DNA from: Paraburkholderia sp. Tr-20389
GTDB lineage: Bacteria > Pseudomonadota > Gammaproteobacteria > Burkholderiales > Burkholderiaceae
NCBI RefSeq assembly: GCF_017104565.1
Contig: NZ_JAAGPD010000013.1
Coordinates: forward strand, 62,001-126,000
Direction of reading: 5' to 3'
Length of the DNA stretch: 64,000 bases
The notes below the pieces were generated by a model, which saw nothing but the letters and a program-made list of their open reading frames with translations, had not been told where the DNA came from and made no database searches. The translations under genes were made by a program, and so were the position numbers. Shown piece by piece: positions 13,926 to 47,544 of the stretch; the stretch's first letter is position 1; every line of letters begins with the position of its first letter.

Positions 13926-14128
13926 GGCTAATCCAGAAGAATGGTCACGGTTTTGGCATGTCTTTCAGCAGATGCAATTACGTTCAACTTTCATTTTTCG
14001 CCAAATGCGAGAGCCAGCGCAGCGAGCAAAGGCGAGCGATTTCCTGCGTCTTTTGCGCAGTCGTCCCTCTGGTTGCAGCCGGAAAATACGCATAACGCCC
14101 GCGCAAGCGGCACCGGACACCGCCATCG

Positions 14129-21191: not shown

Positions 21192-21270
21192 GGTGGGTAA
21201 CGTAGAGATTAACGGGGTCGTTTGGCACGCGGTGCTGCGAAAGCTGCGTAAATGTTGCGAGCTTTGATTC

Positions 21271-27020: not shown

Positions 27021-27163
27021 CGCGGCTGGCAGAGCCTGTTTTCGATGCGTAGGAAACGCGGTGGTTAATTGAAATTTACGGCTCCGCGCATTTAGCGTGT
27101 GCGGGAAAGCTGCGAAAAACGTACGTTCTTTCGCCCCCGATCCCAATTCGCGATTTCTCGCGC

Positions 27164-27899: not shown

Positions 27900-28264
27900 A
27901 TGCGACCTTTGTCACATTTTTCGTCGACGATAATTTCAAAAATTGTCACTAAATGTTTCAGAAATGTATCCGTTAAACGATAGCGCCCGCGTGCGTTCCC
28001 GTGCATCTAAATGCGAAAGAGGGGTCGAAAAGCATCTCTTTCCAGAAAACGACAGGCTTCTATCAGCTTAACCTTCGTTACACATGTAACGAACGACCTC
28101 GCGACGAGGGCACCGCCGAGGAAGAAAGAGCCAGGGAGTCCTCGTTGCATCCCGACGCCGCTCGAGAGCCGCAAGACGCAAACGCCCAAGCTGGTCACCC
28201 TTGGCAGTAAAGGGCTGTTTTTGTACGACCGGGGTGGTCGTGTATTCAACTGTTGGAGAGAACA
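27900..28264 (+). promoter_or_regulatory. Leader of the coiled-coil/FlhDC-like operon, with 20-bp palindrome
   Basis: 365 bases without a gene, AT-richer near 27910-27980. TTCGTTACAC/ATGTAACGAA at 28074-28093 is a 20-bp near-perfect palindrome, a good operator candidate for the product of the next gene. A CGACC...GGTCG hairpin lies near 28225-28240 just before the ribosome site. Confidence 0.55.
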
Positions 28265-29539
28265 ATGCAAACAAGCAAGACATCCAGCACGGAAATCAAG
28301 CTCGCAGGCCGGCCGCCTGTCGTAGCTGCCGTGCATGACGTTACGAAATTTGATCCCTTGGACGAGCTTGTGTTCAGCTTGCAGGATCCGAACGCCGTCA
28401 CGCGCAACAACATCGCGAGCGCCGCACAAAAGGTTTTTGGAGCGGGCCCCGAATCGGCGGAGTTCATTGCGAAGCTCGTCGAGCACATGATGTCCGTTTC
28501 GGAATCGCGGTCGAAAGTCGTCGCCGAACTGGTCATCCTGGGCGGACACCTTTCGCAAATGATGAAGTCCGCGATCAGCCACCACACAGGCAAGGTCGGT
28601 GACTCGACGAATGCACGAAGAAAAGGGGCGTCGCTCTGTTTGGATTTTTTCCACCTGGCTCTGAATATCACTCGGCCAAGCGCCTACAACTACATGCGCT
28701 GCCATCAGAGATTTGCCGACGATGCTGAGGCCGTGAAGATTTTCAGCTTCGGCGAACTCAATCTGCTGGCCACTCCGGATGTGACTGACGAGCAGATCGA
28801 GCTCATCAAGGAAAAGAAGAACGCGGATCCGAAGATCGGCCGCGCAGACGTTGCGACGATGCTCAAAGAGCTTCAGTCCAAGGATGAAGCAATCATTGAC
28901 CGCGACAAGCAGCTGGAAAACCTCGAAGGCCTACTGGCAGACAATAAGCTTCAACTGGATGTCAGCGTACGCGAAAACCGCCATCTGATAGAGCAGCTGG
29001 CGGGACATCAGCGTAGTCTCGCCGATCAGGACAGCAGCATTGCGAATTTGCAGGAACTGCTTGCCCAACGGTCAGCCGGGTATCCCGCTCTGGAACAGGA
29101 GCTTGCGGCCAAAAGCAAGGCGCTTGGTGAGGCGACCGCCGAGCTGACGGCGATGCGTGCGGCGAAACCCAAAACGGAACGCGTGGAAGTTCCGGTCGAA
29201 AAGCTGCCTGATGCTTACAAGAACCTCTCAGATGCCTGTGCGGATGCGATGGGCGAACTGCAAAAACTTGAAGCGCAAAAGGATGACCTATCAAAGGAGA
29301 TCGAGAGTCTCCGCGCCAACGTCGCCGCGCAGCAGTCGGAACGACAGGCAGCCGCATCAGTGAAGAACGCACTCGACGATCTCACGAACGCTTGGGGAGA
29401 AGTCTCCGGGAAGATGGCTACCGTCCAGCTGGCAGTACAGGCGTCCAGCAATCCCGAACAGTACAACCCGACACTGGAAGCGCTCGGCGCAGCGATGCGC
29501 AAGACGCTTTCGGAAGTCGACGCCGCGCTGAACCGCTAG
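28265..29539 (+). CDS. Coiled-coil DNA-binding-type protein, KfrA-like in plan
   Basis: 424 residues from an ATG with GGAG six bases upstream. The N-terminal 190 residues are globular and helical, with a segment (ITRPSAYNYMRCHQRF) resembling DNA-binding helices of plasmid regulators. From about 190 to 350 the sequence is strong coiled coil (EAIIDRDKQLENLEGLLADN and repeats), then a short C-terminal helical part. KfrA-type plasmid proteins combine an HTH with a long coiled coil and act as regulators or nucleoid-like partition helpers. Homology to KfrA itself is not claimed. A 20-bp palindrome upstream fits autoregulation. Confidence 0.7.
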   Translation: MQTSKTSSTEIKLAGRPPVVAAVHDVTKFDPLDELVFSLQDPNAVTRNNIASAAQKVFGAGPESAEFIAKLVEHMMSVSESRSKVVAELVILGGHLSQMMKSAISHHTGKVGDSTNARRKGASLCLDFFHLALNITRPSAYNYMRCHQRFADDAEAVKIFSFGELNLLATPDVTDEQIELIKEKKNADPKIGRADVATMLKELQSKDEAIIDRDKQLENLEGLLADNKLQLDVSVRENRHLIEQLAGHQRSLADQDSSIANLQELLAQRSAGYPALEQELAAKSKALGEATAELTAMRAAKPKTERVEVPVEKLPDAYKNLSDACADAMGELQKLEAQKDDLSKEIESLRANVAAQQSERQAAASVKNALDDLTNAWGEVSGKMATVQLAVQASSNPEQYNPTLEALGAAMRKTLSEVDAALNR

Positions 29540-29586: not shown

Positions 29587-30798
29587 ATGAGTGAACAAGA
29601 AAAAGACAGAATCATGCAAAAAGAATTCCGCGGCCACAGCGAGCCGACCAACCTCCTGCTTTCGGCGTGGCTGGCCGAAAAACTTCAGCGCGCCAATTTT
29701 GGCCTGACCGACTTCATGCGCCGCGCGCTCGCTGCACACCGTCAAATGGAGAACGTATTCGCCCTGTCACTGCCCGACATGGAAACGTTCGAGAAGTACA
29801 TCGGTGCGAAGGCGACGCTCATGAATATGCCGTTCATGGCGCTCGCGCCAGTTCTCGACGATCCGCGCGACTGGGAATCCTTCGTCGACGGCGTGATGTC
29901 ATCGCAGAAAGTCGAAGCGTTGACGGAGGCCATGCCACGCCTCGATCAGATCACAAGCCGGGATATTTACCACTACAACCAGGCATATGTGCAACTCATC
30001 AAGGATGTGTTGCACATGAACTTGCTCGCGGTGCCGTTGCTTGGGGTCTCGATTGAACTTGCAAACTACCTCAGGCAGTTGCCGATGGCCCGTCTCGAGA
30101 AAGCTATCGGCTCCATCCGCTTCCCGCTGTTTCGATGGCGCTTCGAAGATCCGAATTTCTGGATGGAATATGCAGCTGGATGGGTGACAGAAGAAACGGT
30201 TGCCCATTACCTCATGCGCACGTCGCCAGTTCGCACCGACTCCCTTCCCTATAAGCACATCTGGACGGATCTGCGCCTCGAGCGTGAAGACAAGGAAATC
30301 TACGCGCGTCTGATGATGGCGCAGGGATGCCGGGCGTCGACCGCGATCGACCTGTTCAATCTGAACCCGAACAAGGCGCGGACGACCTACAAAGACATTC
30401 ACGGTGTGAGCTCGCCTTGCGGATGCAGAGCTAATTCTCTGCCCTGGTACGTCGATAGCGCAGTGCGTCGGCTCCAGGCGACTGTCTACGTCTGGCTGTA
30501 TCGAAACGGCCTAGCCGCAGGCGGCAACATCCCGCAATCGTTGATCTCAGCGAACGACATCATGGCGAAGATGTTCGGCAAGAATCTGATGATCACTGCC
30601 GATCGCGCTAACCATTTGACCCGCTCGATGGCAATGGACTCGCGCCTGACGATCGCCGCGTGCCGTGGTTGCTCAACGGACTACGTGCTTTCGAACAGTG
30701 AAGGAAAGATCGAACTGGCGAAAGACTTTTCCTGCCCTGGCTGCAATTATTTGCTTTCGACGAAGGCCCAGGCGAGCAAGCGCAGAGCGTCCATCTGA
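29587..30798 (+). CDS. Single-chain FlhD-FlhD-FlhC-like transcriptional activator
   Basis: 403 residues that read as three units. Residues about 20-100 (LLLSAWLAEKLQ...FALSLPDMETFEKY...MNMPF) follow the FlhD pattern of a helical start, a LPxM segment and a final strand. Residues about 125-205 (DIYHYNQAYVQLIKDVL...LRQLPMARLEKA...FPLFRWRF) match FlhD more closely, including the IY-x2-N-x2-Y start and the FRF end. Residues about 235-390 match FlhC: YKDIHGVSSPCG, WYVDSAVRRLQATVYVWLY, HLTRSM, and four zinc cysteines at 359, 362, 383 and 386. FlhC normally pairs with FlhD as FlhD4FlhC2, so the chain holds the 2:1 ratio. Plasmid and ICE relatives (AcaCD, SetCD) activate conjugation genes. The ATG follows a hairpin; a later ATG at 29614 is possible. 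Confidence 0.82.
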   Translation: MSEQEKDRIMQKEFRGHSEPTNLLLSAWLAEKLQRANFGLTDFMRRALAAHRQMENVFALSLPDMETFEKYIGAKATLMNMPFMALAPVLDDPRDWESFVDGVMSSQKVEALTEAMPRLDQITSRDIYHYNQAYVQLIKDVLHMNLLAVPLLGVSIELANYLRQLPMARLEKAIGSIRFPLFRWRFEDPNFWMEYAAGWVTEETVAHYLMRTSPVRTDSLPYKHIWTDLRLEREDKEIYARLMMAQGCRASTAIDLFNLNPNKARTTYKDIHGVSSPCGCRANSLPWYVDSAVRRLQATVYVWLYRNGLAAGGNIPQSLISANDIMAKMFGKNLMITADRANHLTRSMAMDSRLTIAACRGCSTDYVLSNSEGKIELAKDFSCPGCNYLLSTKAQASKRRASI

Positions 30799-33386: not shown

Positions 33387-34607
33387 TTAGTACGCGCAAT
33401 AGGTCGATACGACGCCCCTCGCGCCCGGAATCGGCGCACCAGCACCGTCGTAAATGAGGATCGTCCACGGACCCGTGCCGGCTACCGGTCCGAAGTTCAC
33501 GCCCGTTGTCGGATCGACGGAAAAGTTTTGCGGCGTTAGTTCTATCTGCGGGAGTCCGCCGTTCGGACACGTCGGTGCAGGAACAACAGTGCCATGTACG
33601 ACCTGCCAATACGCCATGCGCAAAATTCGTCCTCCAATCGGCAACCACGTCCCATACAGGCATTGCAGCAATTGCCCTGATCCATCGCTGTTGGCCGACA
33701 TAGCGGTGCCAGAGCACGCGGTCCCCGGCACCGCGAGGTTGCCGACCTTCACGAGTCCGTCGACCGTCGCATTCCCGTGTACCGCCGCCGCGCCGGCATC
33801 CAGCGGCCCCGGTGCCGAGCCAGCGGCGTTTTGAACGTAGAGTGTCGACGGCGTGCGAATAGCAGTGCTCACCGCGACGTTCGATGCAGCCAGTGTCGGT
33901 GCTGCAATTGTTCCCGTCGCGTCGATGCTCTGGACATTGTGAAGACTCACCCCATTGACATTCTGGTCGCCCGTCCACGTCAGACTCCCGTCGCGCCGGA
34001 TGTATACCGAACCACCGTCGGTGCCAGGACCGTTCGTCGCAAAGACAGTCGCCGCCTTCGCGCCCAGCGGATTCGGAGCAGTGAACGATCCATTGATGCC
34101 GCCAATCACACTGGGATTCTGGGAATTTGAGTAACCGAACTGGCTCGTCCCTGCCAGCTTTGAGCCCGCCTCCGCCACTTGAGCGGCACCGGCTACGTCA
34201 GGCTTGCCTCCCTTCAGCAGCGGGTTCGTGGGGTACATCGTGAAAGCGACACTACAGTTCCCAGCGGCCTGCGTACATCCGGCGGGCACCATGGTCATGG
34301 TCGTTGCATATGAACCGCCCCAAAACGGTCCTGCCTTGTGCGCCTGCTTAAGGTTACCGGCCGTGACAAGTTGCGCAATGGTTGGGGGCGTCAATGTTGA
34401 AACGTTACCCGATGCGGTGTACTGCGAGAGGACCGTTCCAAAGTTGTCAGAGATCCAAGCGTCGAAAGCCATCACCAGTGTTGCCTGATTCTGACCTTCG
34501 AGCGACAGCATCGTCGCACGCGTATTCGCGACATCTGCCTTGATCGCCTGCACCGTCAGAATGGCTGAACCGAGCAGGACGAACATCATCTCCAGCAAGC
34601 TTCCCAT
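33387..34607 (-). CDS. pilV: PilV-type minor pilin / tip adhesin
   Basis: 406 residues. A short type IV leader and pilin helix (MGSLLEMMFVLLGSAILTVQ) begin the protein. A long repetitive Gly/Ser/Thr-rich stalk follows, with beta-structured C-terminal parts containing CxxxxC pairs (GCTQAAGNC and TACSG). PilV proteins of IncI-type thin pili carry variable tips selected by a shufflon. No inverted-repeat shufflon and no rci recombinase were seen next to it, so this tip appears fixed. The gene follows pilS by 12 bases. Confidence 0.82.
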   Translation of the reverse strand: MGSLLEMMFVLLGSAILTVQAIKADVANTRATMLSLEGQNQATLVMAFDAWISDNFGTVLSQYTASGNVSTLTPPTIAQLVTAGNLKQAHKAGPFWGGSYATTMTMVPAGCTQAAGNCSVAFTMYPTNPLLKGGKPDVAGAAQVAEAGSKLAGTSQFGYSNSQNPSVIGGINGSFTAPNPLGAKAATVFATNGPGTDGGSVYIRRDGSLTWTGDQNVNGVSLHNVQSIDATGTIAAPTLAASNVAVSTAIRTPSTLYVQNAAGSAPGPLDAGAAAVHGNATVDGLVKVGNLAVPGTACSGTAMSANSDGSGQLLQCLYGTWLPIGGRILRMAYWQVVHGTVVPAPTCPNGGLPQIELTPQNFSVDPTTGVNFGPVAGTGPWTILIYDGAGAPIPGARGVVSTYCAY

Positions 34608-34619
34608 GACTGCCCCGGA

Positions 34620-35213
34620 TCACGTGCGCGACGTGTAAAGCTGGAGCGTCGCGTATGCACCACCCGCAGCGCAAGCCGTGCCCGCGGTGGCGCTGTTGAA
34701 GGTCGTCGTCGGACCGGCGAGAGTCGTGCCGTTCGCTGCCACCTGCGAATAGGTGTTAGTCAAAGCGGCCACGCTCATGGAACATACCGCTGCGGGGACC
34801 TGATACGACATGATGAGCGAGTCGTTGGCCGTGCTCAGCGTACCGACCGAGATCGTCACGGGCTGGTTAAAGATGCCCTTCAACGATGACTTGTCCGATG
34901 CCAGACGCGCGCCTGCCGCGTCGAACGCCCGGTTCGTGGCAAGCGTAGTTAGTGACTCTGTGGAAAAGTCGGCGTCGTTCAGCGTGGCTTTCAGCATGCC
35001 CGTATGGAACATTTGCGCTTCACTCGTGAACTCTTGCGACTTAATCAGGGTGTAGACGTAAGCCCCGCCCTTGATCACCGCCATCGCGAGTAGCGCTGCG
35101 CCCGCCATGTATGCACCGGCCTCGATCAGCGATAGTTCGCCCGACTGCTTTCTGCGACGGCCCATCTGGATCAGACGCAAACGACGGACGCCGTCAATCT
35201 TTTTCTGTTGCAT
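34620..35213 (-). CDS. pilS: PilS-type major prepilin
   Basis: 197 residues from an ATG with GGGAG five bases upstream. A basic leader (KKIDGVRRLRLIQMGRRRK) precedes SGELSLIEAGAYMAGAALLA, the prepilin cleavage site and pilin helix. Cleavage after the Gly would leave Glu first and another Glu at +6, slightly off the usual Glu+5. Two cysteines (near AAVCSM and GTACAAGG) probably form the type IVb disulfide. The prepilin peptidase (PilU) is not in the window. Confidence 0.8.
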   Translation of the reverse strand: MQQKKIDGVRRLRLIQMGRRRKQSGELSLIEAGAYMAGAALLAMAVIKGGAYVYTLIKSQEFTSEAQMFHTGMLKATLNDADFSTESLTTLATNRAFDAAGARLASDKSSLKGIFNQPVTISVGTLSTANDSLIMSYQVPAAVCSMSVAALTNTYSQVAANGTTLAGPTTTFNSATAGTACAAGGAYATLQLYTSRT

Positions 35214-35268
35214 AAAATCTCCCAAGATTCACGCGTGAAAGCGTGGAAAAAAGTCTACGATCGACCGC

Positions 35269-36399
35269 TTATTGCGACCCTGCGACGGGAATGCCGCCGC
35301 TCATGTTCACTGCCCCGGTGACCACGTACGAACCGACACCGATGGTTAGAAAGAGAATGACCGCGAAGCCGAGCAGCACGTAGTGCGTTAGCCGTGCATT
35401 TCGCTTCACTGCCTCCACCACGCGAGCAAGCGAATCGCGACCAAGCGACTTAATCGCCGCTTCAAACTGATCCCGGCCCGCAGCATCAGTAATCGTGTCG
35501 ACGATCATTTCCGAAAAGATGCCCGTGTCGAGGGCGCGCATCGGCTGATCGGGACGTTGCGTTAGGCGCTTGCTCATCGTTGTCAGATGCCAGCGCATCC
35601 AGGGGTCAGACGATTGCGCTACCCGGTTTATCGCAGCTCGCAGCGTCAGGTTTGAATCGAACAAGCCAGCCAGCGAAACGATCAGGAGCGCTGCTCGCAT
35701 GTCGCGACGGTTTCGCCACATGAGCGGAAACCTGTCAAAGCGGTTACGCAGCGGACCTATCCAGCGTTTCAATGTGTGGAAGTACAGCGCGATCGTCGCG
35801 ATCACCAGCGAGGCAGATATCCACCAGTACTCGTAAGCGAAGGTGTCGATATGAAACAGCAGACGGCCCGCGTCAGGCCATTGGTCCAACGGCTTGATCT
35901 CGACAATCTGCGGATAGATCACTCCACCAAACATCATGCAGAAGCCGTAGAGATAGACCAGCAGAAATGTCGGGTAGGCGACCTGCAATGCGGTTTGCGA
36001 TGACAGCGTGCGCTTGGCGAACGCTGCCATCTCCGCAAGCTCGAACCCTCTGGCCACCGCGTCTTTCTGAGTCGACTCGTCCGCGATATCGAAAAGCGTG
36101 TACTCGTCGCCGGGGATAAACGGCTTGATAGCGGCGGAAAACGAATCACCCTTTACGAGACGCTCGCGAACTTGCGCAAAGACCTTCCACTCGATGCGGT
36201 CGCGTTTCCGGTTACGGTTCTCGTAGGTCTCGAGACGTTCGCGCAGAGTTTCGACGTCCCGTAGCCCCTTCTTCTCAATATCAAGCCGTGTTTCCTTGTA
36301 GAAGGTCTCACGCACACCCTGAAACCTCCAACGGGCAATACGCATCTGCGCTGCTTCGGGAAGCATGGCGATCAACGAACTGAGCATGACGGATATCAA
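35269..36399 (-). CDS. pilR: PilR, inner-membrane platform protein (GspF family)
   Basis: 376 residues of the T2SF/PilC/PilR family. Three membrane segments are visible (about 155-175, 200-218 and 350-370), with two cytoplasmic helical domains before and between them, as in pilus platform proteins. The start overlaps the pilQ stop by four bases (ATGA). It works with the PilQ ATPase to assemble PilS into the pilus. Confidence 0.88.
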   Translation of the reverse strand: MISVMLSSLIAMLPEAAQMRIARWRFQGVRETFYKETRLDIEKKGLRDVETLRERLETYENRNRKRDRIEWKVFAQVRERLVKGDSFSAAIKPFIPGDEYTLFDIADESTQKDAVARGFELAEMAAFAKRTLSSQTALQVAYPTFLLVYLYGFCMMFGGVIYPQIVEIKPLDQWPDAGRLLFHIDTFAYEYWWISASLVIATIALYFHTLKRWIGPLRNRFDRFPLMWRNRRDMRAALLIVSLAGLFDSNLTLRAAINRVAQSSDPWMRWHLTTMSKRLTQRPDQPMRALDTGIFSEMIVDTITDAAGRDQFEAAIKSLGRDSLARVVEAVKRNARLTHYVLLGFAVILFLTIGVGSYVVTGAVNMSGGIPVAGSQ

Positions 36400-38774
36400 C
36401 CTTGTTGTAGTTTCCCGTCTGCACCCGGCATCACGCGGTATTGCGCGAAGGACTGCATGGAACGGTTGATGAATTGTGGGTCGATTTCGCCGCGCGAAGC
36501 CTTGAAAAGAGCGTGTTCATATAGCGTCTTTCCGGTCATATCCTCGTTATCGAACCCGGTTGTACGTTCCCCACGCCATACAGTGCGCGCGCCGCTCCAG
36601 TCGCGCGCCGCAATCCGCTCGCGAAATTCCGGCGTCGGTCGGTAGAGTTCGGCCACGAGCGTCGGCCGCTTAGTGCCGCCGGCGACCTTGCCGTCGCGTG
36701 AGAAAAGTCCGTCGAGACGGCATTGGTCGCAACCACCATGATTGCGGCAAGCCATCTTCGAAGTATCAAGGCCGAACTTCGAGCGTAGCAACTCGAGGTC
36801 AGCGGTAGGCATCACCTTTTCCGCAGATAGCTTGCAATTTGGGCACAGGGTCGGCACCAGCTTCTGGTTGCCCACGGCATTGATAAACCCCTCCGCCGCC
36901 AGTTCGTCGATCGGAAGTTGAAGTCGGCCGCCCGCCATACGCATGACGGCCGAAATAATGTCGCCTGCGTGTAACGAGAAGCGCACTGGATGGCCTGTCA
37001 ACGCCAGTTCCGACACGAGCCCCATCACGACGCGATCGCGAACTTCCGAGATCGTGACGTCGTCCGGGTCCATACGCATGAGCGTGCGGATGACCTCCGC
37101 GTATTTTCGGTTCGCTTCCTCGTCGGACTCGTCCGGGCGTCGGATGATCGATATTTCCGACAGCCACGGCAATGGATATTCCGACGGCTCGCTGACAGCG
37201 AACTGCTTTTTGAGCTCGCGATCCGGCAGCATGTAACTCAACGCGCGCAGCAGCGTCGTCTTCCCCGAACCAGTTTCCCCCGTCAGAACCGTAATACCGC
37301 CACTGACATAGTTGAGCGTGTCGATCAAGGCAAGTTGGCTTGACGACAGCCCCATCTGCTCGGGCATGAGCACCGAGTAGTTCTTGAAGTTGCCGTCGAG
37401 CAGACGCAGCCCGACGTCATAGCCTCCAACCATCGATGCGGATTGCCATCGCAGATTTACGGTATCCCGCCCTAGAACCAGCGGGATCATTGCCGATTGC
37501 GGCGCGCTCGGCTGAAAGGAGTTGCCCGAGTTTGTATTCTTCTGGACCAGATCCGAATACGCTGCGGAGAGCGCCCGACGCACGATGTTCTTCGGCAGGC
37601 GTCGGTATGTGTAGAGGTCGCCATTCACCCGGAAGCGCACCTCGACTTCCGCCAGAAAGTCGCGCGGCTCAATATGCACATCGCTCGCGCCGTACGCATG
37701 GGCCGCCTCGATGATGTCCCGGAAGTTGCCGATTGCCCGCGATGCTTCACGCTCGCCACTGACAAGCGCATCCCGATTTCCCTGCTTTCCTTCATAGATC
37801 GCCGCGATAACCTGCTCGGTCGCGATCATCTCTTCCTGCACGAGAAGATCGTGGGCAGCGAGGTCCTTAAGGAACGTTGCGAACTGCGCGCGCTCACTGA
37901 AGCGTGCCGTCGCCGCAACGATGGCAATGCCCGGTTGTATTTCGACTGCGACGAATTCCTTGCGCACTGCCGCCGATATGCGCAGCGTCGAATCGGCTTC
38001 GATGCCCGTGATGACGCGCTTGAAGTCCGGCAGTGCTTCCGCCGACACGAGCGCAGGTCTGCCGCTCATCGTGCTGATGGACTCATTCTCCTGGTCATCG
38101 TCCTCTTCGTGGTCCCGTGTCGTCGACACGTGATTCGGTCTTTCCTGAGGATGCGCTGTTGCGGAGATAGGCACGCGAGCGGAAGACTGCGCCGATGCTC
38201 GTGCTGATGCTGCTGATGCTGCTGGTGCTGCGTGCGAGAACGATTGGGTGGTTTCAATGGATACCGCCACCGGTTCAGCGGCATCGGCAGGAAGAGCAGC
38301 CTCAGCGACCGTCGCAACCGTGGCACGCAGCTCCACAGGGTTTGACTGCGCTGCGATCATCTCGTCCAGCTCGCGCAGGGCCTTTTCGCCCTCTGCATAC
38401 GCGTTGCCCAGTGTCGCGGTCAAATTGTCTGCAGGAGCCACAGCGGGCTCGCGGACTGATGGCATTGCGACGTGCTCCTCTAGCAACGCAGGAGCCTCAG
38501 GAGCCGCAGCGGCAATACGCACCTCGGTAACCTTGCCATCTGATTCCTTGAATTCCTCCACATCCGTGATGTCGTCACCGGACAGCTTGCGACCGAGAAA
38601 TGACACCGTTGGATTGATCGCCTTCGTCGGCTCGCTAAAGGGCGGTTCCTTCGCGGCGCGAGTCGCGCCCTGACCCGTCGCCACAAATGCTGTCGGCCTT
38701 ATGCCGCGTAACCGCTTCAGAAAGCCACCGCTTGCCTGATCCTCGTCCGTCTCGATACCTGAAAAGAGACTCAT
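36396..38774 (-). CDS. pilQ: PilQ, type IV pilus assembly ATPase
   Basis: 792 residues. The first 280 are disordered and Ala/Glu-rich, a longer extension than usual. The GspE/PilB ATPase core follows: VLTGETGSGKTTLL (Walker A), an Asp box near DVTISEVRD, and a His box. Downstream come CPNC and CRNHGGCDQC (a tetracysteine zinc site) typical of assembly ATPases. It powers pilin polymerisation at the inner membrane. It begins four bases after pilP and overlaps pilR. Confidence 0.9.
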   Translation of the reverse strand: MSLFSGIETDEDQASGGFLKRLRGIRPTAFVATGQGATRAAKEPPFSEPTKAINPTVSFLGRKLSGDDITDVEEFKESDGKVTEVRIAAAAPEAPALLEEHVAMPSVREPAVAPADNLTATLGNAYAEGEKALRELDEMIAAQSNPVELRATVATVAEAALPADAAEPVAVSIETTQSFSHAAPAASAASARASAQSSARVPISATAHPQERPNHVSTTRDHEEDDDQENESISTMSGRPALVSAEALPDFKRVITGIEADSTLRISAAVRKEFVAVEIQPGIAIVAATARFSERAQFATFLKDLAAHDLLVQEEMIATEQVIAAIYEGKQGNRDALVSGEREASRAIGNFRDIIEAAHAYGASDVHIEPRDFLAEVEVRFRVNGDLYTYRRLPKNIVRRALSAAYSDLVQKNTNSGNSFQPSAPQSAMIPLVLGRDTVNLRWQSASMVGGYDVGLRLLDGNFKNYSVLMPEQMGLSSSQLALIDTLNYVSGGITVLTGETGSGKTTLLRALSYMLPDRELKKQFAVSEPSEYPLPWLSEISIIRRPDESDEEANRKYAEVIRTLMRMDPDDVTISEVRDRVVMGLVSELALTGHPVRFSLHAGDIISAVMRMAGGRLQLPIDELAAEGFINAVGNQKLVPTLCPNCKLSAEKVMPTADLELLRSKFGLDTSKMACRNHGGCDQCRLDGLFSRDGKVAGGTKRPTLVAELYRPTPEFRERIAARDWSGARTVWRGERTTGFDNEDMTGKTLYEHALFKASRGEIDPQFINRSMQSFAQYRVMPGADGKLQQG

Positions 38775-38778
38775 CGTC

Positions 38779-39363
38779 TTATCTCCCGTTCGAACCGAAC
38801 GAACCCACGCTCGTAACCACAGGGAGCGGCCCGCCGAGGTCGGTAATGGCCCGCACAGCCGGGACGTCTAACATCGGCAGCGACGCCGACGTTGTGGATA
38901 TGACTTCTGTCCATGTCCGCTTTCCTTCGGAAACGGAGATGTGGTAGCCGTCGACGCGCGTAACGACCCAGCCGTTGATCAGCCTTTCTCCGCGCGCAGC
39001 GGAGTAGACGCCACCCTGGTAGTCGTAAAGGACGTGCGCCCCGGTCATATCACTGTATGCCCCAACGAAAGTGACAGGCGCAGCGCGCGGTGCAGGTGGG
39101 CTTGATGGCTTGGATGCTTTCGGAATCACCACTGGGGCGGCTACAGGATTCGCCAATGGTGTCGCCAGCGATCCATTTAGACTCACTCCCTGGGCGGGTG
39201 CCTGTGCCCCGTCCGTCTTGCGCATCGAGTTGACAAGATTTTGACGTGCCAAACCGTCAATGTCGCCCAGCGTCAAGTGCTTCTCATCGGCATGCGCGGT
39301 GCTTGCGACACAGAGTGCAAAAAGCGATGCCGCCACGATGCGGGCTGTGTTATTGGAGTACAT
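38779..39363 (-). CDS. pilP: PilP-like pilus biogenesis protein
   Basis: 194 residues with a cleavable signal (MYSNNTARIVAASLFALCVASTAHA, shown only in part as SLFALCVASTAHA). A Pro/Ala linker follows (about 60-95), then a C-terminal beta domain (VLYDYQGGVYSAARGERLIN, WVVTRVDGYHISVSEGK) as in PilP, which links the inner-membrane complex to the secretin. The ATG overlaps pilO by 14 bases. Confidence 0.85.
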   Translation of the reverse strand: MYSNNTARIVAASLFALCVASTAHADEKHLTLGDIDGLARQNLVNSMRKTDGAQAPAQGVSLNGSLATPLANPVAAPVVIPKASKPSSPPAPRAAPVTFVGAYSDMTGAHVLYDYQGGVYSAARGERLINGWVVTRVDGYHISVSEGKRTWTEVISTTSASLPMLDVPAVRAITDLGGPLPVVTSVGSFGSNGR

Positions 39364-40630
39364 AGTATTTACCCTTCGCCGTGAAGTGAACGCCAGTGCC
39401 GTCTTCTTTCAATTCGAGCTCAAGCGCGTCGAGAGACATGTTTTCCGGCAGGTTGCCGAGCAGCCGGCCTTGCCACATATAGCCATCAATCGTCCACTCA
39501 CCTACAAGGACGATGGGCCCGGCCACGTCCCCCACGTTCGGCTGACGTGCGAGAAGGCGTTGTGGTGGCCTCAGTGTCACGACATACCCATGACTCGTCA
39601 GCAGGTCGGGCTTGGTCGAAAGACGCTGCGGATCAGTCTGCAGCTGTTTGATGAGCACTTGCGCGGTAGGCCACTGCCGCGCCTGCGCGAGAGAAACTCT
39701 CTGCGTTTGAGGAACGGCTGGTCCTTTGATTTTCAGATGCAGACCGTCAGCATCGAATACGACGGGGCGCATTTCCGCCGATGCGCGAGCGTCGAATTCC
39801 TTGAACGTGCCCCCTTCGCGCTTGAAAGTGATTGCGCACGAACCAGCGACGCCGCACGATGCCTTCTCGAACTGCCATCCGTCCATGTTCGTTTCCTGAC
39901 GGCCAAATGTGTCCAGTAGAGCGGGGGCAAGTTGAGATGCAAGCGGCACGGAGCCAGCGAACATGCGCGCGACCGCGTTCTGATATTCCTGCATGTAGGT
40001 CGGCGGTGGAGCGGCCGGCGGCGGCGGCGGACTGATATAGCTGATCGCTTCGCTTCCCCCGTAGATCAGCGCGACCGCGATAATTGCCAGCGGAACCGCC
40101 TTTGGCAACTTCACGGGCAGCTTTTTGATGAGGCCGACGCTCTTGCTTCGCAGCAATTCGGCCGCGGCAAATGGCTCATCGAGATCGACAAGATCCGCAC
40201 CGTAGCCGATTGTCACCAGCTCGACGCGATCGCGCTCACATTCATCCTCAAGCGCATTGCGACGCGCGCGTAGCGCATTGAGCGGGATGGTTTCATCTGT
40301 CCGGACTGCCCCCCGTACAACGAGGATCGCATGAACACGCTGTGCGTCCTGGATCAGCACTAAAACCGCTGGTTTAGTCCGCACGCGCTCGAGATCGGCA
40401 ATGCGCGCTGCAGCGGAATAGAGCTTCACACCCTTGCGATCAGCCGCTTCCGGCGCGCAGAAGCCAGCTACCGTTTCTTCCTTTCCCTTGATCTCGACGA
40501 AATGCGTCGCGTCGAGTTCCTTCGCATAGCGTCGGCGTTCGCCAGCCCCGCCCTTCGTTGCATATGCGCGCCATTCGAGGCCGAAGACGAGCCGCGCCTT
40601 CTTTCCGGTCGGAATGTTTTCGAAATGCAT
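39350..40630 (-). CDS. pilO: PilO2-type pilus assembly protein
   Basis: 426 residues from the ATG nine bases after the pilN stop; the longer frame overlaps pilN. An N-terminal cytoplasmic domain (1-185) precedes one membrane span (about 190-206, AVPLAIIAVALIYGG), a PPPPPAAPPP hinge and a periplasmic domain. This is the PilO2 plan of IncI thin pili. It likely connects PilQ/PilR with the PilN secretin. Confidence 0.82.
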   Translation of the reverse strand: MHFENIPTGKKARLVFGLEWRAYATKGGAGERRRYAKELDATHFVEIKGKEETVAGFCAPEAADRKGVKLYSAAARIADLERVRTKPAVLVLIQDAQRVHAILVVRGAVRTDETIPLNALRARRNALEDECERDRVELVTIGYGADLVDLDEPFAAAELLRSKSVGLIKKLPVKLPKAVPLAIIAVALIYGGSEAISYISPPPPPAAPPPTYMQEYQNAVARMFAGSVPLASQLAPALLDTFGRQETNMDGWQFEKASCGVAGSCAITFKREGGTFKEFDARASAEMRPVVFDADGLHLKIKGPAVPQTQRVSLAQARQWPTAQVLIKQLQTDPQRLSTKPDLLTSHGYVVTLRPPQRLLARQPNVGDVAGPIVLVGEWTIDGYMWQGRLLGNLPENMSLDALELELKEDGTGVHFTAKGKYYVLQ

Positions 40631-40638
40631 TGCGCCAC

Positions 40639-42270
40639 TCACATCGACGGCACGACGTTCGCGGTCAGCATGATCACCTGGAACGTCTTGGCCTTGTTCC
40701 ATGCTCCGCTGAAACCCAGGATACCGTTGTTGCTGGCCGCATCGTAGTTGTTGGTCACCGCGCCATACATGACGACCGTTTGGCCATCAGACAACGCGAT
40801 TGTCTGGTCATCTTTGCTGCCCACGATGTCGGGCAACTGGATCTGTTGTGCCGATGCACCGGAGCCCGTTCCAATCGTCGTAAATGGTCCGTTCAGTTTC
40901 GAACTGTCGCTCCAGTAGGACAGAATGATCTGGTTGTGATCATTCACGGACGGCAGGATGTTCACGAAGTCACCGACGGTGACCGATCCAGGTGTAAGAC
41001 CCGGAAGACCCGCACCGCCGCTGAGCGATCCCGTCGCTGGGGTAGTTGCTGCCAGATAGCCCTTGGTCTCGAATGAACCGATCGACATCGGGAGTCCATT
41101 GAGGGTCATCTTCGTCTGGGTGTTGTCCGAGATCGTCTTGCCATATGTGTTGAGCGCGTTGATCACCGCGTTCGTGCCAGTGAGCGGCGCATTTGGCTTC
41201 AGGATCGACAATCCAACCGAACCCGCCGAGGTTGCAAGCGATGTGGGCGACACGACACTGATCGAGTACTGCAGGAGACCATTAGAGATCTTGTTGAAGA
41301 TGATGTCGGCACTTGCGCCCGCCTGCGAACCATTGTTTAGCGCGATTTGAAGCGTACGAACACGCACAGACACCTGACGCGTCGATATCGCGTTCTCACG
41401 CGTGAGCACTTCGCTCATGCGATCAACCGCTTCCTTCGTGTCTCGCACCATAACCAGCCGGCTTTGCGGATTAACCGTGATCTTGCCGAGCGGCGATTTC
41501 AGGCTTTCCAGCTCCTTTGTGATCAGGTCGATCTGATCAAATTTGCCGTCGCGGCCAGTCGACGTAACCGCGGAGAATGAACCGGTGTTAGCACTAGTTG
41601 TACCGTTCGCGGTCGACTGCGAACCCGTAGACGTATCGGTCCCCTTCGACATCGATGATTTGACGTTAACGGTGCCGGGAATAGCTGCGATCTGAAATGT
41701 ACGGGTCACGAAGCGTGAGATATTGATCGTCGCGCCGTCAAAACTCCACGCCAGACCGAGGTCCTCAGTCACGCTGTGCAGGTATTGGCCAAGCTTCGCG
41801 TTGCCGGGCTGCCTGTAGATGGGGTCTACGTTCGTAGCAGCCTGTCCGAGTCCCGGGACCGAAAGCCTTGCAGCTCCATTGCCACCGTTTGCACTGCCCG
41901 AGGTAGTTTCGATCAAGGCATCGCGCGGAATGAAGACGTCCGGGCTCAAGTGCACGGGGTAGCCTGCCGCATCAGAAAGCATTGTTGCGATCTTCGACAG
42001 TGGCAGATTCGCCGGTAGGGTGACGGACTTCTCGCGGAACACTGCTGGCAGAGTCGCTTCGTATGCGACCGGGACAGGCCGGTCGCCGAGAAAGGCGGTC
42101 GGTACGTGTTCGACGAGGGGCATCGACTCACCCATGCCCGCCATTGCGTGCGTTGCGTCGTGTGTTGCCGAGTCATACGCGTTGTTCACGTCGGATTGCG
42201 AAACCACGCAACCGGTAAGCGTGGACGCGACGAAAAGGGAAACAGCAGCCTTAAATCGGTTTGCTCGCAT
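40639..42270 (-). CDS. pilN: PilN, type IVb pilus secretin lipoprotein
   Basis: 543 residues. A lipoprotein signal ends STLTGC (Cys21). The N-terminal domains include a Ser/Thr/Gly-rich spacer near 215-240. The secretin homology region occupies about 330-543 (QKVTVRVR-like strand RQVSVRVRTLQIAL, GSVTVGDFVNILPSVNDHNQ, IVGSKDDQTIALSDGQTVVM). It forms the outer-membrane channel for the pilus. It starts four bases after the TcpQ-domain gene. Confidence 0.9.
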   Translation of the reverse strand: MRANRFKAAVSLFVASTLTGCVVSQSDVNNAYDSATHDATHAMAGMGESMPLVEHVPTAFLGDRPVPVAYEATLPAVFREKSVTLPANLPLSKIATMLSDAAGYPVHLSPDVFIPRDALIETTSGSANGGNGAARLSVPGLGQAATNVDPIYRQPGNAKLGQYLHSVTEDLGLAWSFDGATINISRFVTRTFQIAAIPGTVNVKSSMSKGTDTSTGSQSTANGTTSANTGSFSAVTSTGRDGKFDQIDLITKELESLKSPLGKITVNPQSRLVMVRDTKEAVDRMSEVLTRENAISTRQVSVRVRTLQIALNNGSQAGASADIIFNKISNGLLQYSISVVSPTSLATSAGSVGLSILKPNAPLTGTNAVINALNTYGKTISDNTQTKMTLNGLPMSIGSFETKGYLAATTPATGSLSGGAGLPGLTPGSVTVGDFVNILPSVNDHNQIILSYWSDSSKLNGPFTTIGTGSGASAQQIQLPDIVGSKDDQTIALSDGQTVVMYGAVTNNYDAASNNGILGFSGAWNKAKTFQVIMLTANVVPSM

Positions 42271-42274
42271 CGGT

Positions 42275-42895
42275 TCAATCCTGGCAGTTGGCCGCGCGGG
42301 CGACCACGCGAATTACGTTGTTGGTGTGCTCGCAAACTCGGGTCGGTGTGCGCATGTGATTGGTGGCTTTCATAACCTGCGTGAGCACGGAATCGAAATC
42401 GCCGCTAAAAGTCGCGTTGAATTCGAGCGGTAGGTCGTCGTCGATCTTCCATGCGAGTTGCCAGCCCTGTTGCTGTAACCAGCGATCCAGCGCATTGCGC
42501 AGATTGATGTCCTGCGGAGTGATAGCGAGAGTCAGGACACCACCGGGTGCCGGACCCGTTGCGCCCGGAAGAATTACTGGGGTGACGGCTGTCGATGCAA
42601 CTAGCGTTGTGGGTACGGCTGCAACGGAAGGCATCGAAGCAACAGTCGGAGCCATTGAGGGCTTCCCGCTGACTGACGCCGCTGGAGTTGATGGACTTAC
42701 CGAACCCAATGTCGCTTTAGGGACGGCGGCGGGCGCAGATAGCATCTGCCAGCCATCGCCCGCCGGCGGGGCGACACGCGACTGATCCGGGTCGATGGCC
42801 GCATAAGTCCAGAGGGGCACTGCGGCGAGCGTCAAAGCTGCGAGCACACGTGTGAGGACGCGCACGCTGTCGTTGCGTTCGATGGTTACGTTCAT
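42275..42895 (-). CDS. TcpQ-domain pilus protein (PilL/PilM-like)
   Basis: 206 residues. A membrane or signal segment lies at 14-33 (LTRVLAALTLAAVPLWTYAA). A Ser/Pro/Val linker (60-115) follows, and a C-terminal domain (NLRNALDRWLQQQGWQLAWK...FEATFSGD-like FNATFSGDFDSVLTQVMKA) is of the TcpQ C-terminal family found in toxin-coregulated and type IVb pilus systems. It probably assists secretin placement. Conserved order before pilN supports this. Confidence 0.8.
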   Translation of the reverse strand: MNVTIERNDSVRVLTRVLAALTLAAVPLWTYAAIDPDQSRVAPPAGDGWQMLSAPAAVPKATLGSVSPSTPAASVSGKPSMAPTVASMPSVAAVPTTLVASTAVTPVILPGATGPAPGGVLTLAITPQDINLRNALDRWLQQQGWQLAWKIDDDLPLEFNATFSGDFDSVLTQVMKATNHMRTPTRVCEHTNNVIRVVARAANCQD

Positions 42896-42897
42896 TT

Positions 42898-43326
42898 TTA
42901 TTGCCCCTGCCGCTGCAGGCGGCGATTAATAGCGTTGGCGTAATTCAGTTGCTTCCACGGCGTCGACGCGTTGTAGGCACCGACTGCTTTCCAGGTTGGG
43001 CCATACCGCCTGATCTTTCTCGCGAGAATCCACGTTCCTACATAGGCGTTCACACATGCATCGAACAGGTGTTCGCGGCGTATTCCGTAACGGGCGAGAC
43101 CGGGAAGTTCGCCGGAGTTCACCTGCATCAAGCCGATGTCCTCGGAGCCATCGGAGTTCACGTGAACGGCATTCGCCCGCATACTGGACTCGTTCTGTGC
43201 TATCGCGTGAACGAGCTGGCTGTTGATGTGCTGAAACGCGGCAGCATCATCGAGACAATCCGCCTGTGCGATCGACAGACACAACGACGCAACGACGCCA
43301 ACTACGACACGGATCAGCCTTTTCAC
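42898..43326 (-). CDS. Lytic transglycosylase (PilT/VirB1-like)
   Basis: 142 residues. A signal peptide (to about SIAQA) is followed by the soluble lytic transglycosylase core: AIAQNESSM with the catalytic Glu, DIGLMQVNS, and AVGAYNAS near the end. It opens peptidoglycan for the pilus or secretion complex. The start overlaps the upstream gene by four bases. Confidence 0.9.
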   Translation of the reverse strand: MKRLIRVVVGVVASLCLSIAQADCLDDAAAFQHINSQLVHAIAQNESSMRANAVHVNSDGSEDIGLMQVNSGELPGLARYGIRREHLFDACVNAYVGTWILARKIRRYGPTWKAVGAYNASTPWKQLNYANAINRRLQRQGQ

Positions 43327-44600
43327 GATTTCTCCACCGCCGCCGTTGCTGCTTGCGCCGTCGCAGGCTTGACGGAAGCAGGGCGGTCGAAGAACTTCAC
43401 GTCGTGACTGCGCGTCACATTCACCACGTTGCCGTCAGCATTCACGATGAACTGATCTGCTGTACCGTTGAACTTGTAGTACCGCCCCTTCTGTTCGCCC
43501 GACCCAAGATGTCGGGCGTCAGAGACCTTCACGTTGCCAATGGTGTCGGCGAACTTGAAGTACGTCGAACCGTCCTTGTCGAACACCGCTTCGAGTCCCG
43601 CGCTGTTCTTCGCGTCGAACGAATAGACAAGACCTGCGACCCGGGCCACCTCGACGCTGTCGGTACCGTTCGACACGACAAAGCGGTCAGTGCGGTTCAG
43701 CGTCACGACATTGCTCGATTCATCCCATTTTGGCTTGAGGGAGTGCCCCTCCATGTCCCGAAAGACGAGTTCTTTTGCAGGCCTTTGGGCGAAACGGATC
43801 TGGATATGGGTATCGTCACCGTCGCGGATTGCGACCGCGCCAAAGGACCCAGCGAGGCCATCACTCTGGGGCGACTTTTCAGGGGCCGCAATCGGTTCTG
43901 CCGGAGTCGCCGACGGCGGCGCGGACGCGACAGCAGGTGCCGCGCTCGCAAGATAGTTCACCGCCATGGATTTGGCCCCGGCCCGCCGCAGTGTGACGTG
44001 GTGCGCGTTGAAATCTACATCCGCGTACAGGTCATCCGCGCCGAGAAGCCGATCCAGCGATTGCATCCAGTTCTCGCCATCGCGAGTCGCGTAACTTTGC
44101 GCAGTGGTCAGATCGACATCCTTCTGGGCCGAACCCGTCCAGCCCTGCGGAACAAGCGCCTTAACCAGTTGCGCGAGCGGCAGCGTCGCGCTCATCGATC
44201 GGGTGCTCTCAAGGCGCGAACGGGTTCCGACGATCGCGAGGCGGTTCGAGAATCCGGCAAATCCAGCAGGCATGTCGCCGCTGCCGTTGCCGCGATCCGA
44301 CGCGAAGCTGTTCGCCTTCTTCCAGCGCGCCCTAGCGCTGGCGCCACCGACCGAATAGCTCACTACATCGGGCGTACCTGGCACAACGATATAAGGACCT
44401 TCAGGATGCCCGCCATCGACCTTGAGCAGCTGGCCAGCGCGCGGCTGCACAAAGGTGTCAGTCCCATCGTTGAATACGAGCGCAGGGCGTTCGGCTAGGT
44501 TGCCGTTGATCTGATAGTCGAAGTCGAGCGGATCGGTGCTCGCAGCCGACGCGGACAGCGAGAACACCGTCAGCGCAAAGAGGGTTAGCGTGTGCTTCAT
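43323..44600 (-). CDS. TcpQ / VirB9-like hybrid protein
   Basis: 425 residues with a signal peptide (MKHTLTLFALTVFSLSASA). The first domain (about 38-110, PALVFNDGTDTFVQPRAGQL) has the beta pattern of the VirB9/TrbG C-terminal domain. A TcpQ-type domain follows (about 140-210, LAQLVKALVPQGWTGSAQKD, SLDRLLGADDLYADVD). A third region (about 250-400) repeats the VirB9-like pattern (AVIRDGDDTHIQIRFA-type, LEAVFDKDGSTYFKFAD). The mixture of conjugation and pilus domains in one protein is unusual and suggests a bridge between the two machineries. Confidence 0.72.
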   Translation of the reverse strand: MKHTLTLFALTVFSLSASAASTDPLDFDYQINGNLAERPALVFNDGTDTFVQPRAGQLLKVDGGHPEGPYIVVPGTPDVVSYSVGGASARARWKKANSFASDRGNGSGDMPAGFAGFSNRLAIVGTRSRLESTRSMSATLPLAQLVKALVPQGWTGSAQKDVDLTTAQSYATRDGENWMQSLDRLLGADDLYADVDFNAHHVTLRRAGAKSMAVNYLASAAPAVASAPPSATPAEPIAAPEKSPQSDGLAGSFGAVAIRDGDDTHIQIRFAQRPAKELVFRDMEGHSLKPKWDESSNVVTLNRTDRFVVSNGTDSVEVARVAGLVYSFDAKNSAGLEAVFDKDGSTYFKFADTIGNVKVSDARHLGSGEQKGRYYKFNGTADQFIVNADGNVVNVTRSHDVKFFDRPASVKPATAQAATAAVEKS

Positions 44601-45403
44601 AAGCCCCGATCGATTTGGGAGAGATGCCGGATGAAGCGCGCGAGGTATTCGCGGCCTGGCTGAGGATTGGCGCTGTGGTAGTACGCAACTGCTTTCACAG
44701 CGGAGTTAGTCTTGCGATAGTTCTCGTTGAGAATGTCTTCGGCGACGCGAACGTTCGTGGCAGGTGCGAGCGCGTCCCATGGCGATGCGAATCGCTGCCG
44801 GTGATAGCACCAGTTCACCTGCATGAGGCCAATGTCGAAGTCGCAGCGGCCGTCCGATATCAGGAAGCGGATCGCCTTGTACGTGTCCTCGCGCGTACGG
44901 AAAAAAAAGCCGCGCCCGGCAACATTCAGCGTCCAGGGCCATGCGTGACCGTTGTAGGCCGACTCATTAAGCGCGATGCCCGCAAGGATCTTTGCGTCGA
45001 CGGTCGCACGCAACACATCGAAAGGTGCCTGGGCAGACGCACAAGCCCAGCCACCGCGCCGCTCGGTGAGTGCAGCTTGCGCCTGATCGTCCAGAACAGC
45101 CGGTTGCAACCAGCCACTCCTGACGAGCAAGCTTTGAAGGCTCTCGGTTGCGCCATCGACCACGACCGACGCGACGCCGTTATTCGTCGGCTCGACACGC
45201 TGGCCGATCAAAGGCTTCGCCCATGCAAGGAAGCGCTGCAGCCCACAGGCGTATACGGGTGTACCTGTAAACGCGAGCATCGTGCGCTGACCACCATCTT
45301 CAACGACGAAGCTGTTGGGGCTGATGACTGTCTCGATCACCGCTGCGCGCGACGAGGCACACGCGAGAGCGAGCACGAGCGCAGCGGCGAAACGGTTAGT
45401 CAT
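44597..45403 (-). CDS. Lytic transglycosylase, VirB1-like, with N-terminal extension
   Basis: 268 residues. A signal peptide (ALVLALACASSRA) precedes an N-terminal domain of about 110 residues (AFTGTPVYACG, VEPTNNGVASVVVDG) reminiscent of small nuclease-like beta folds. The transglycosylase core has ALNESAYNG (catalytic Glu), DIGLMQVNW and AVAYYHSAN. It begins eight bases inside virB10. Two transglycosylases in one operon suggest separate entry points for the VirB-like complex and the pilus. Confidence 0.85.
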   Translation of the reverse strand: MTNRFAAALVLALACASSRAAVIETVISPNSFVVEDGGQRTMLAFTGTPVYACGLQRFLAWAKPLIGQRVEPTNNGVASVVVDGATESLQSLLVRSGWLQPAVLDDQAQAALTERRGGWACASAQAPFDVLRATVDAKILAGIALNESAYNGHAWPWTLNVAGRGFFFRTREDTYKAIRFLISDGRCDFDIGLMQVNWCYHRQRFASPWDALAPATNVRVAEDILNENYRKTNSAVKAVAYYHSANPQPGREYLARFIRHLSQIDRGL

Positions 45404-46661: not shown

Positions 46662-46663
46662 GA

Positions 46664-47539
46664 TCAGAACACTCCAAAGACGCGGCGCCGGCCACGCGTA
46701 ACCGTCACTTCATCCTTTCCTGACACGAGCACGATCTCGTCGGCAAGGCGCTGGAACACTAGAAAATCGCCGCGCCGGATGAAGTTACCCACTACCCGAT
46801 CTCCGTGGTCCTTGTACATAGGAACCGGCCACGTCTGCGCCTTGATCGGCATCCGCATCCAGATCGAGTGACCGTCATCGAAAACCACTTCAGGCTTAAA
46901 CTCGGCGCTTCCGTCAACCGAGTAATCCCAGTTCAGCTTGTCGGGGGACACGCTGATATTGCCTGAGTCGGTCGCGCGCTCACCCCCAACTGCGCCAGCG
47001 CCAACCGAGTCGTCGCGAGCGGCAGCTCGCGTCATTGGCGCCCGCGGATACTGGAATCGCACGGTCTGGTAAAAGAGCCCGCCAGCCGGCGACGCAATCA
47101 GCGTGAAGTCGTACTCGCGCCGGTTCGTCGTCAGGTGCAGCGTGTTCACGAGATCGGGCTTATGCGGCTTGATGAACACATGGTTCATCTTGTCGTCATC
47201 AATTTCCCACTGGATGCTGTCGCCCATTGCTGGGTCCGCAATCAGCTTCTCACCCGGTTCGAGCTCGATCGTCGTCAACTTCAGTGGCGCAGTAAGGACA
47301 CGAAATATCTGGTCCCGGCTGTACGAGAACACGCCAATGCGGGCATCGCCAGGCATCGTGAGTGGGTCCGCGCCACTGTTGAATGGGTTCACCGGGCTCA
47401 TCGGATCACTCGCGATCATCGCGGTGTTGATCGCCCCTGCATCTGCAGGGCGTTTGGCCTGTGCGGCCACCATCGGTAAAGCGATCGCGGCAAGCGTAAG
47501 GGCGATGCCAATCGCAGGTCGTAGAGGTTTCGTGATCAT
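46664..47539 (-). CDS. virB9: VirB9/TrbG-like protein
   Basis: 291 residues from the ATG with GGAG ten bases upstream; a TTG nine bases earlier overlaps the virB8 stop and is an alternative. A signal peptide ends near VAAQA. The N-terminal beta domain has LTTIELEPGEKLI. The C-terminal domain (FKPEVVFDDGHSIWMRMPIK) is the VirB9/CagX type that joins VirB7/VirB10 in the outer-membrane core. Confidence 0.9.
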   Translation of the reverse strand: MITKPLRPAIGIALTLAAIALPMVAAQAKRPADAGAINTAMIASDPMSPVNPFNSGADPLTMPGDARIGVFSYSRDQIFRVLTAPLKLTTIELEPGEKLIADPAMGDSIQWEIDDDKMNHVFIKPHKPDLVNTLHLTTNRREYDFTLIASPAGGLFYQTVRFQYPRAPMTRAAARDDSVGAGAVGGERATDSGNISVSPDKLNWDYSVDGSAEFKPEVVFDDGHSIWMRMPIKAQTWPVPMYKDHGDRVVGNFIRRGDFLVFQRLADEIVLVSGKDEVTVTRGRRRVFGVF

Positions 47540-47544
47540 GAGGC

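Follow-up and report, generated by a model that had tools for sequence, protein, structure and literature searches.

In a 64,000-nt stretch of the genome of Paraburkholderia sp. Tr-20389, hereafter the window, we observed a stop-free open reading frame (ORF) of 403 residues whose product joins FlhD-like and FlhC-like parts on one polypeptide (Table 1). A GTG located seven codons 5′ of the ORF start is an alternative start; it corresponds to the annotated start position in the Paraburkholderia sabiae copy, which is 97% identical. The gene directly upstream encodes a coiled-coil-like protein for which none of the families listed scores above its curated threshold. When relative regions are compared by position and size, a hypothetical coding sequence of about 1.1-1.35 kb occupies this place in 23 of the 24 annotated ones; the exception, L060, has IS66 genes.

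The order of the genes is largely conserved in the annotated regions with long flanks (the KK10 region carries no annotation): PRTRC-D, primase, (NERD), hypothetical protein, regulator, small genes and CAP-domain protein. The CAP-domain gene is present in most regions and beyond it, on the opposite strand, lies a pil/virB8-10 operon, so that the regulator gene belongs to a conserved block facing this operon. In the window the presumed target operon encodes VirB8, VirB9, VirB10, transglycosylases, a secretin-like protein, a pilus ATPase and the major pilin. We found virB8 in all 30 fusion-bearing genomes (16) or plasmid records (14) examined, out of about 45 loci. The contig that holds the window (C6, 200 kb) also carries, about 10-19 kb before the window start, genes for a VirB11-type T2SSE protein, VirB4, TrbL/VirB6, a relaxase of the TraI_2 family and a coupling protein of the TraG/D type. 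Like the activators of the AcaCD/SetCD type, the fusion gene is located beside transfer genes on a conjugative element.

Table 1. Genes, protein units and candidate regulatory sites (positions in the window)
Feature	Position	Strand	Basis
Single-chain FlhD-FlhD-FlhC-like regulator, 403 aa (alternative GTG 29566)	29587..30798	+	ORF, Pfam, hhalign, cysteines, model
Putative first FlhD-like unit, residues 27-114	29665..29928	+	AlphaFold2 model of residues 20-212; profile support weak, mixed
Second FlhD-like unit, residues 121-211	29947..30219	+	Pfam/NCBIfam FlhD 124-193 / 125-190, hhalign E 9e-7, model
FlhC-like unit, residues 244-388, zinc cysteines 359, 362, 383, 386	30316..30750	+	Pfam, NCBIfam, hhalign, invariant cysteines
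Coiled-coil-like protein upstream of regulator, perhaps co-transcribed (47-bp gap)	28253..29539	+	ORF, profile search
Presumed target operon, virB8 to last pil gene	33387..48255	-	ORFs and P. sabiae plasmid annotation (regulator 97% identical)
Candidate operator copy, intergenic	14026..14053	-	score 24.6
Candidate operator copy between integrase-domain and PRTRC-D genes	21238..21265	-	score 19.8
Candidate operator copy upstream of NERD gene and regulator operon	27106..27133	+	score 20.2, clade-free profile
Weak candidate operator copy upstream of regulator operon	28014..28041	-	score 12.9
Extended -10-like TGTTTCAAT, 25 bp after proximal operator	48280..48288	-	promoter layout
Proximal virB8 candidate operator, 55 bp before virB8 start codon	48311..48338	-	score 17.6, clade-free profile
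TTAACACGTAATAA / TTAACRCGTAATAA element beside distal operator, common to virB8 and virB11 promoters	48384..48397	-	promoter comparison
Distal virB8 candidate operator copy	48410..48437	-	score 15.3-15.7

A fused FlhD-FlhC protein of Burkholderiaceae plasmids

We compared the protein with Pfam, NCBIfam and profiles of the canonical families. Pfam matched FlhC (PF05280) at residues 244-388 (E = 3e-4), with a score of 21 bits that lies below the curated cut-off of 27 bits, and FlhD (PF05247) in the second unit only, at residues 124-193 (E = 0.008), with 16.8 bits for the same cut-off value of 27. NCBIfam agrees with these calls. For hhalign, canonical profiles were prepared from 41 FlhD loci, some of which are the same operon taken twice, and 44 FlhC loci, from the own genome and from relatives. 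Residues 113-208 matched the FlhD profile (probability 91, E = 9e-7, about 30% identity) and residues 209-403 the FlhC profile (probability 99, E = 4e-17, about 26% identity). With these two E-values the FlhD-FlhC fusion is therefore well established, and the FlhC part announced by the initial annotation is recovered by Pfam and by hhalign.

The four cysteines that had been proposed as zinc ligands align with the zinc cysteines of canonical FlhC. They are unchanged in 46 of 46 aligned members, that is, the window copy and 45 relatives with stop-free single frames (E cut 1e-50; 35-97% identity to the window protein). The C-terminal remnant L022 and the tandem-FlhC frame L032, described below, were left out of this alignment.

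Among 72,556 plasmid records (PLSDB), 48 carry the fusion. All are from Burkholderiaceae (Cupriavidus 18, Burkholderia 15, Paraburkholderia 9, Caballeronia 4, Robbsia 2) and they include pMOL28, pBVIE02 and pHG1; according to PLSDB, 26 of these plasmids are conjugative, 9 mobilizable and 13 non-mobilizable. Since each of the 48 matches is a single piece covering at least 80% of the query, an artefact of gene calling is ruled out, and a broken gene pair is likewise ruled out because the window copy has no stop. In an order-wide search, 11 of 399 genomes matched, only two of them over near-full length; five matched from about residue 120 onwards with an in-frame stop, like ordinary adjacent FlhD and FlhC genes, and four in the FlhC region only. 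In a class-wide search, where at most five candidates per genome were scored, 13 of 369 genomes matched, at full length in the own genome only. This genome carries four canonical FlhD and FlhC pairs besides the fusion. A scan of viral contigs with the family alignment gave 13 pattern matches, with no relative among them.

Most of the fusion genes already carry the database label "FlhC family transcriptional regulator". Their FlhC part was thus known, and the present analysis contributes the pair of FlhD units, the AcaD comparison and the operator. A narrow literature search, with most subscription journals outside it, found no description of the fused regulator or of another FlhDC-type transfer regulator for these megaplasmids; it included the available sections of PMC7423338, PMC4207636, PMC10838148, PMC11493245, PMC9962212, PMC5058578 and PMC4542580.

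Other arrangements of related genes were also seen. An incomplete Burkholderiales genome (68% complete) has a 555-codon open frame with two tandem FlhC-like stretches (L032:418-2082). Elsewhere in the class, divergent FlhC-like genes stand beside short FlhD-like genes (L098-L103, L110, L112-L114), and one genome there, G666, holds FlhC-like stretches at five places. In Candidatus Burkholderia humilis there is apparently a C-terminal remnant only (L022:10001-10331, query residues 293-401), which looks like decay.

The N-terminal unit and the tandem architecture of AcaD

The first FlhD-like unit had been called the weaker match, and this is indeed the case: residues 1-112 gave no match in the Pfam and family HMM searches, and hhalign against the FlhD profile gave a probability of 0.3. 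Structure prediction was of unequal value. The full-length AlphaFold2 model is poor (pLDDT 53.8, pTM 0.37); with it, Foldseek placed FlhC of 8j56/2avu first, the best E-value being 2.5e-3 and none being below 0.001. For residues 20-212, modelled with 22 sequences, the best of five models reached a pLDDT of 85.7 and a pTM of 0.82 (mean pLDDT of the five: 85.7, 75.9, 74.8, 70.8 and 69.3). In this model a series of seven elements, namely four helices (24, 7, 9 and 8 residues), one short strand and another two helices, recurs in the same order and with near-equal lengths 94-96 residues later, the halves being compared without superposition. When Foldseek was run with this model, E. coli FlhD (1g8e) had the highest probabilities among the 50 rows listed (0.93 and 0.90; TM by target 0.67 and 0.76; rmsd 2.1 Å over 79 columns and 1.8 Å over 73). 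These two matches rank 9 and 16 among the matches listed, with E-values above 1 and without indication of the half that is matched, and ferritin-type bundles outrank them by E-value. An FlhD fold in at least one unit is supported by the profile match of the second unit together with these Foldseek matches.

We also examined AcaD, the partner of AcaC in the transfer activator of IncC plasmids. In the IncC plasmid pAR060302 the FlhC-like gene was found with the Pfam model, and the gene directly upstream was taken as acaD by position and size: it encodes 202 residues (L096:833-1438), and the published AcaD, encoded in acaDC, is a 22.8-kDa protein (PMC4207636, available sections). Stretches 23-86 and 105-168 of AcaD are 28% identical (E = 2e-8) and score 77 against each other, versus 25.6 ± 4.6 for shuffles; with two relatives added, hhalign of one half against the other gave E = 2.6e-7. 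The first half alone did not match the FlhD profile (probability 1.8). With AcaD as query, no match came from the 369 genomes of the class, an empty result that carries no weight as evidence of absence. This internal similarity indicates that AcaD is itself an FlhD-FlhD tandem duplication, of which the parts of the AcaCD and SetCD papers available to us make no mention; relatives of AcaD are mostly annotated as hypothetical protein. The initial annotation described AcaCD and SetCD as made of separate subunits, which stands, but AcaD is itself a tandem FlhD pair and not a single FlhD. The 2:1 ratio would therefore already sit in AcaD plus AcaC, and the window protein resembles AcaD fused to AcaC. 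It goes beyond them in having FlhC on the same chain.

Residues 1-115 could instead be an unrelated helical domain, for instance for signal sensing, the protein then being FlhD-FlhC only. The lack of a profile match and the Foldseek E-values for 1g8e speak for it, as do column permutations of the first unit against FlhD, in which 73 of 200 reach the observed score, and against the first unit of AcaD, in which 134 of 200 do. On the other side, none of 200 permutations reaches the score against the second unit of AcaD (a borderline 10 of 200 do so against the second unit of the protein itself), the seven elements appear twice in the model, and AcaD offers a precedent for a tandem FlhD. We consider the unrelated domain quite unlikely; judging from the model, we take the first unit to be, most probably, an FlhD that has eroded. 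The domain order FlhD-FlhD-FlhC given by the initial annotation is then upheld by profile for the second FlhD-like unit and the FlhC-like unit, and made probable by the model for the first.

A candidate operator upstream of transfer genes

We took 39 regions upstream of virB8 and derived an iterated profile, seeded by eye. It describes a 28-bp near-palindrome with the approximate consensus AAAGnCGCnnAAAATCGCnnnnCTTTCG (28 bits), and these promoters share ancestry, there being 37 unique sites in the 39 regions. In 36 of these regions the copy with the highest score ends 54-71 bp upstream of the virB8 start codon; in L046, L148 and L152 a distal copy scores highest. When only the last 150 bp are considered, the hexamer TYNAAT lies 25 bp beyond the site in 23 promoters and 26 bp beyond it in the other 16, counts that carry no chance level, and it is preceded by TGn in all 39 promoters, as in an extended -10. 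No conserved -35 box was obvious by eye. With profiles trained by leaving one clade out, all 39 promoters score above 99% of shuffles (7/7, 8/8, 14/14 and 10/10), the lowest score in three clades being smaller than the largest shuffled score.

For the scan of the contig, the Paraburkholderia clade was left out of the training of the profile, and 400 kb from two further contigs served as control. At a score of at least 20, C6 gave 10 rows, equal to seven distinct places when the near-palindrome is counted once, and the control none; at a score of at least 16, there were 15 rows in C6 versus one in the control. Two of the seven places belong to the virB11 operon, as its proximal (51947) and distal (52088) sites; the others are C6:35224, C6:41250 and positions 14026, 27106 and 43759 of the window. 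The candidate operator consequently not only precedes virB8 but also precedes the virB11 operon, and it adjoins the operon of the regulator itself, where the NERD start was set by comparison with L024. A third promoter with distal and proximal copies lies 54 bp before an ORF starting at C6:41007, which encodes a 288-residue protein without Pfam match and is followed by a UvrD-like helicase gene; the match at C6:35224 precedes genes without Pfam match. The TGnTYNAAT rule fails at the virB11 and C6:41062 sites, where the hexamer 25 bp further on is AACAAT. The strong match at 43759-43786 lies inside the second TrbG/VirB9-family gene and occurs only in close relatives (L024, L127, L128), so it may be due to chance.

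In other loci, copies scoring at least 16 are found at virB8 (L024, L127, L128, L045, L046, L047, L025, L049), upstream of the NERD gene or the regulator operon (L024, L127, L128, L045, L046, L048, L025) and, by position, between the integrase and PRTRC-D genes (L024, L055, L046, L048). L055 has no virB8 site at this score. At the place equivalent to the weak copy upstream of the regulator operon in the window, L045 and L046 have stronger ones. Matches also lie close to PRTRC-D and maintenance genes, so that the regulon, if real, extends beyond transfer.

Another element, TTAACRCGTAATAA, was the first operator candidate. In the window plasmid its best 27-base match between the promoters of virB8 and virB11 is 21/27, which none of 300 shuffles reaches. 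With up to two mismatches allowed, only two of 15 further loci have it, and both come from the P. sabiae plasmid; of the 13 loci that lack it, six (L001-L004, L007, L011) stop short of the virB8 promoter. Owing to this rarity, the 28-bp near-palindrome is regarded as the main operator. At a place similar to that of TTAACRCGTAATAA, L128 and L143-L145 have a palindrome, TAACGCGTTA.

Candidate binder and proposed role of the regulator

We compared the operator profile with the sites of related activators. It resembles the AcaCD core GCCCAAAATGGGC (PMC5058578, available part) with p of about 0.002. For the half-site of E. coli FlhDC, AAYGSSNNAAATAGCG (PMC9962212, available part), p is 0.01-0.02; the likeness to the 8-base core of this half-site alone is not significant (p = 0.055). 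An FlhDC-type activator is suggested by this likeness to the AcaCD core and the FlhDC half-site, by the absence of an obvious conserved -35 and by the constancy of the spacing, and we infer that such a protein binds the candidate operator.

Another protein of the plasmid, such as the upstream coiled-coil-like one, or a host factor might nevertheless bind the operator, the FlhD-FlhC chain regulating something else. The near-constant presence of a similar-sized gene directly upstream of the regulator would fit such a binder, the motif was discovered without reference to any binder, and operator copies are also found near maintenance genes. We hold this to be unlikely: for the upstream protein no family listed reaches its curated threshold, the candidate site is similar to both the AcaCD core and the FlhDC half-site, and the layout of the promoters suits an activator sitting just upstream of the polymerase.

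The homology to FlhDC and the four canonical FlhD and FlhC pairs (FlhDC operons) of the host could also suggest a regulator directed at the host, which takes over its flagellar or motility genes. Against this stand the low identities in the profile alignments (about 30% for FlhD, 26% for FlhC), the location of the gene within plasmid transfer neighbourhoods and the absence of candidate operators scoring at least 20 from the 400 kb of other contigs examined. We regard this as very improbable.

The regulator is most likely the transfer activator of the plasmid. In our view (probability about 0.7) it is a plasmid transcription activator with FlhD-FlhD-FlhC on one polypeptide, which would turn on the transfer operons via the candidate operator. 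Two chains would pair to give an (FlhD)4(FlhC)2 arrangement; this complex would bind the 28-bp near-palindrome, centred near -50, and bring sigma-70 polymerase to promoters that have an extended -10 but lack an obvious conserved -35. In this way it would turn on two operons, virB8-pil and that of the virB11, virB4, relaxase and coupling-protein genes, and the regulator probably controls its own operon. The transfer switch had been suggested initially from the VirB and pil genes; the idea gains support from the conserved gene block, the type IV secretion and TraI_2 relaxase genes on the contig and the candidate operators before virB8 and virB11.

The regulator probably acts in the manner of AcaCD, its D2 and C parts being joined in a single chain. 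AcaCD of IncC is a transfer activator with FlhD-type and FlhC-type parts (PMC4207636, available part), and like SetCD, AqaCD and SgaCD it is such an activator on a plasmid or ICE, as the window protein would be. AcaD also shares the tandem FlhD, and the AcaCD core matches the operator profile. The differences are that AcaCD and SetCD are encoded by two genes, D then C, whereas the window family has one gene (48 of 48 plasmid matches and 45 relatives), and that residues 1-208 show no significant similarity to AcaD (hhalign probability 1.2, E = 0.04). The AcaCD type was reported by HMM search in Enterobacteriaceae and Vibrionaceae (PMC4542580, in the sections available). In canonical FlhDC (FlhD4C2; PDB 2avu, 8j56) we find likewise FlhD-like and FlhC-like units, zinc cysteines, the presumed 2:1 ratio and a palindromic DNA site with an AAAT core, but FlhDC has separate subunits and flagellar targets, and its box of 42-44 bp (PMC9962212, available part) is longer than the 28-bp candidate site. 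BisDC of ICEclc, an activator of transfer competence known from Gamma- and Betaproteobacteria, has an FlhC-like subunit too, but it is encoded by two genes and BisD has a ParB domain and no FlhD domain detected, according to the available sections of PMC7423338. In the IncT plasmid Rts1, conjugation needs both of the adjacent FlhC-like and partner genes setC and setD (PMC10838148, available part). These are two genes, in contrast to the one of the window. The transfer genes of Rts1, which we take to be F-type, are unlike those of the window plasmid.

We lean towards a more specific reading, in which the protein is a covalently built master activator of conjugation carrying the 2:1 ratio of FlhD to FlhC on one chain. 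It would be the end point of a series going from FlhD + FlhC to (FlhD-FlhD) + FlhC, as in AcaCD, and then to FlhD-FlhD-FlhC, with its own 28-bp operator common to megaplasmids of the pHG1/pMOL28/pBVIE02 kind. As one chain would hold exactly two FlhD and one FlhC, a homodimer would be the whole FlhD4C2 machine. Such a single-chain version would fix the stoichiometry genetically, so that the 2:1 ratio and the contacts of the hexamer with DNA could be studied in one polypeptide, and the tandem FlhD of AcaD suggests the same logic in IncC plasmids. For the large class of Burkholderiaceae megaplasmids that includes pHG1 and pMOL28, the analysis provides a candidate transfer switch and an operator that can be put to the test.

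A further palindrome, AGGAACATGTTCCTT, perhaps the site of a second regulator, is common to pMOL28 and pHG1 in their divergent virB8/virB11 region (L025:37598-37995 and L047:39640-40017).
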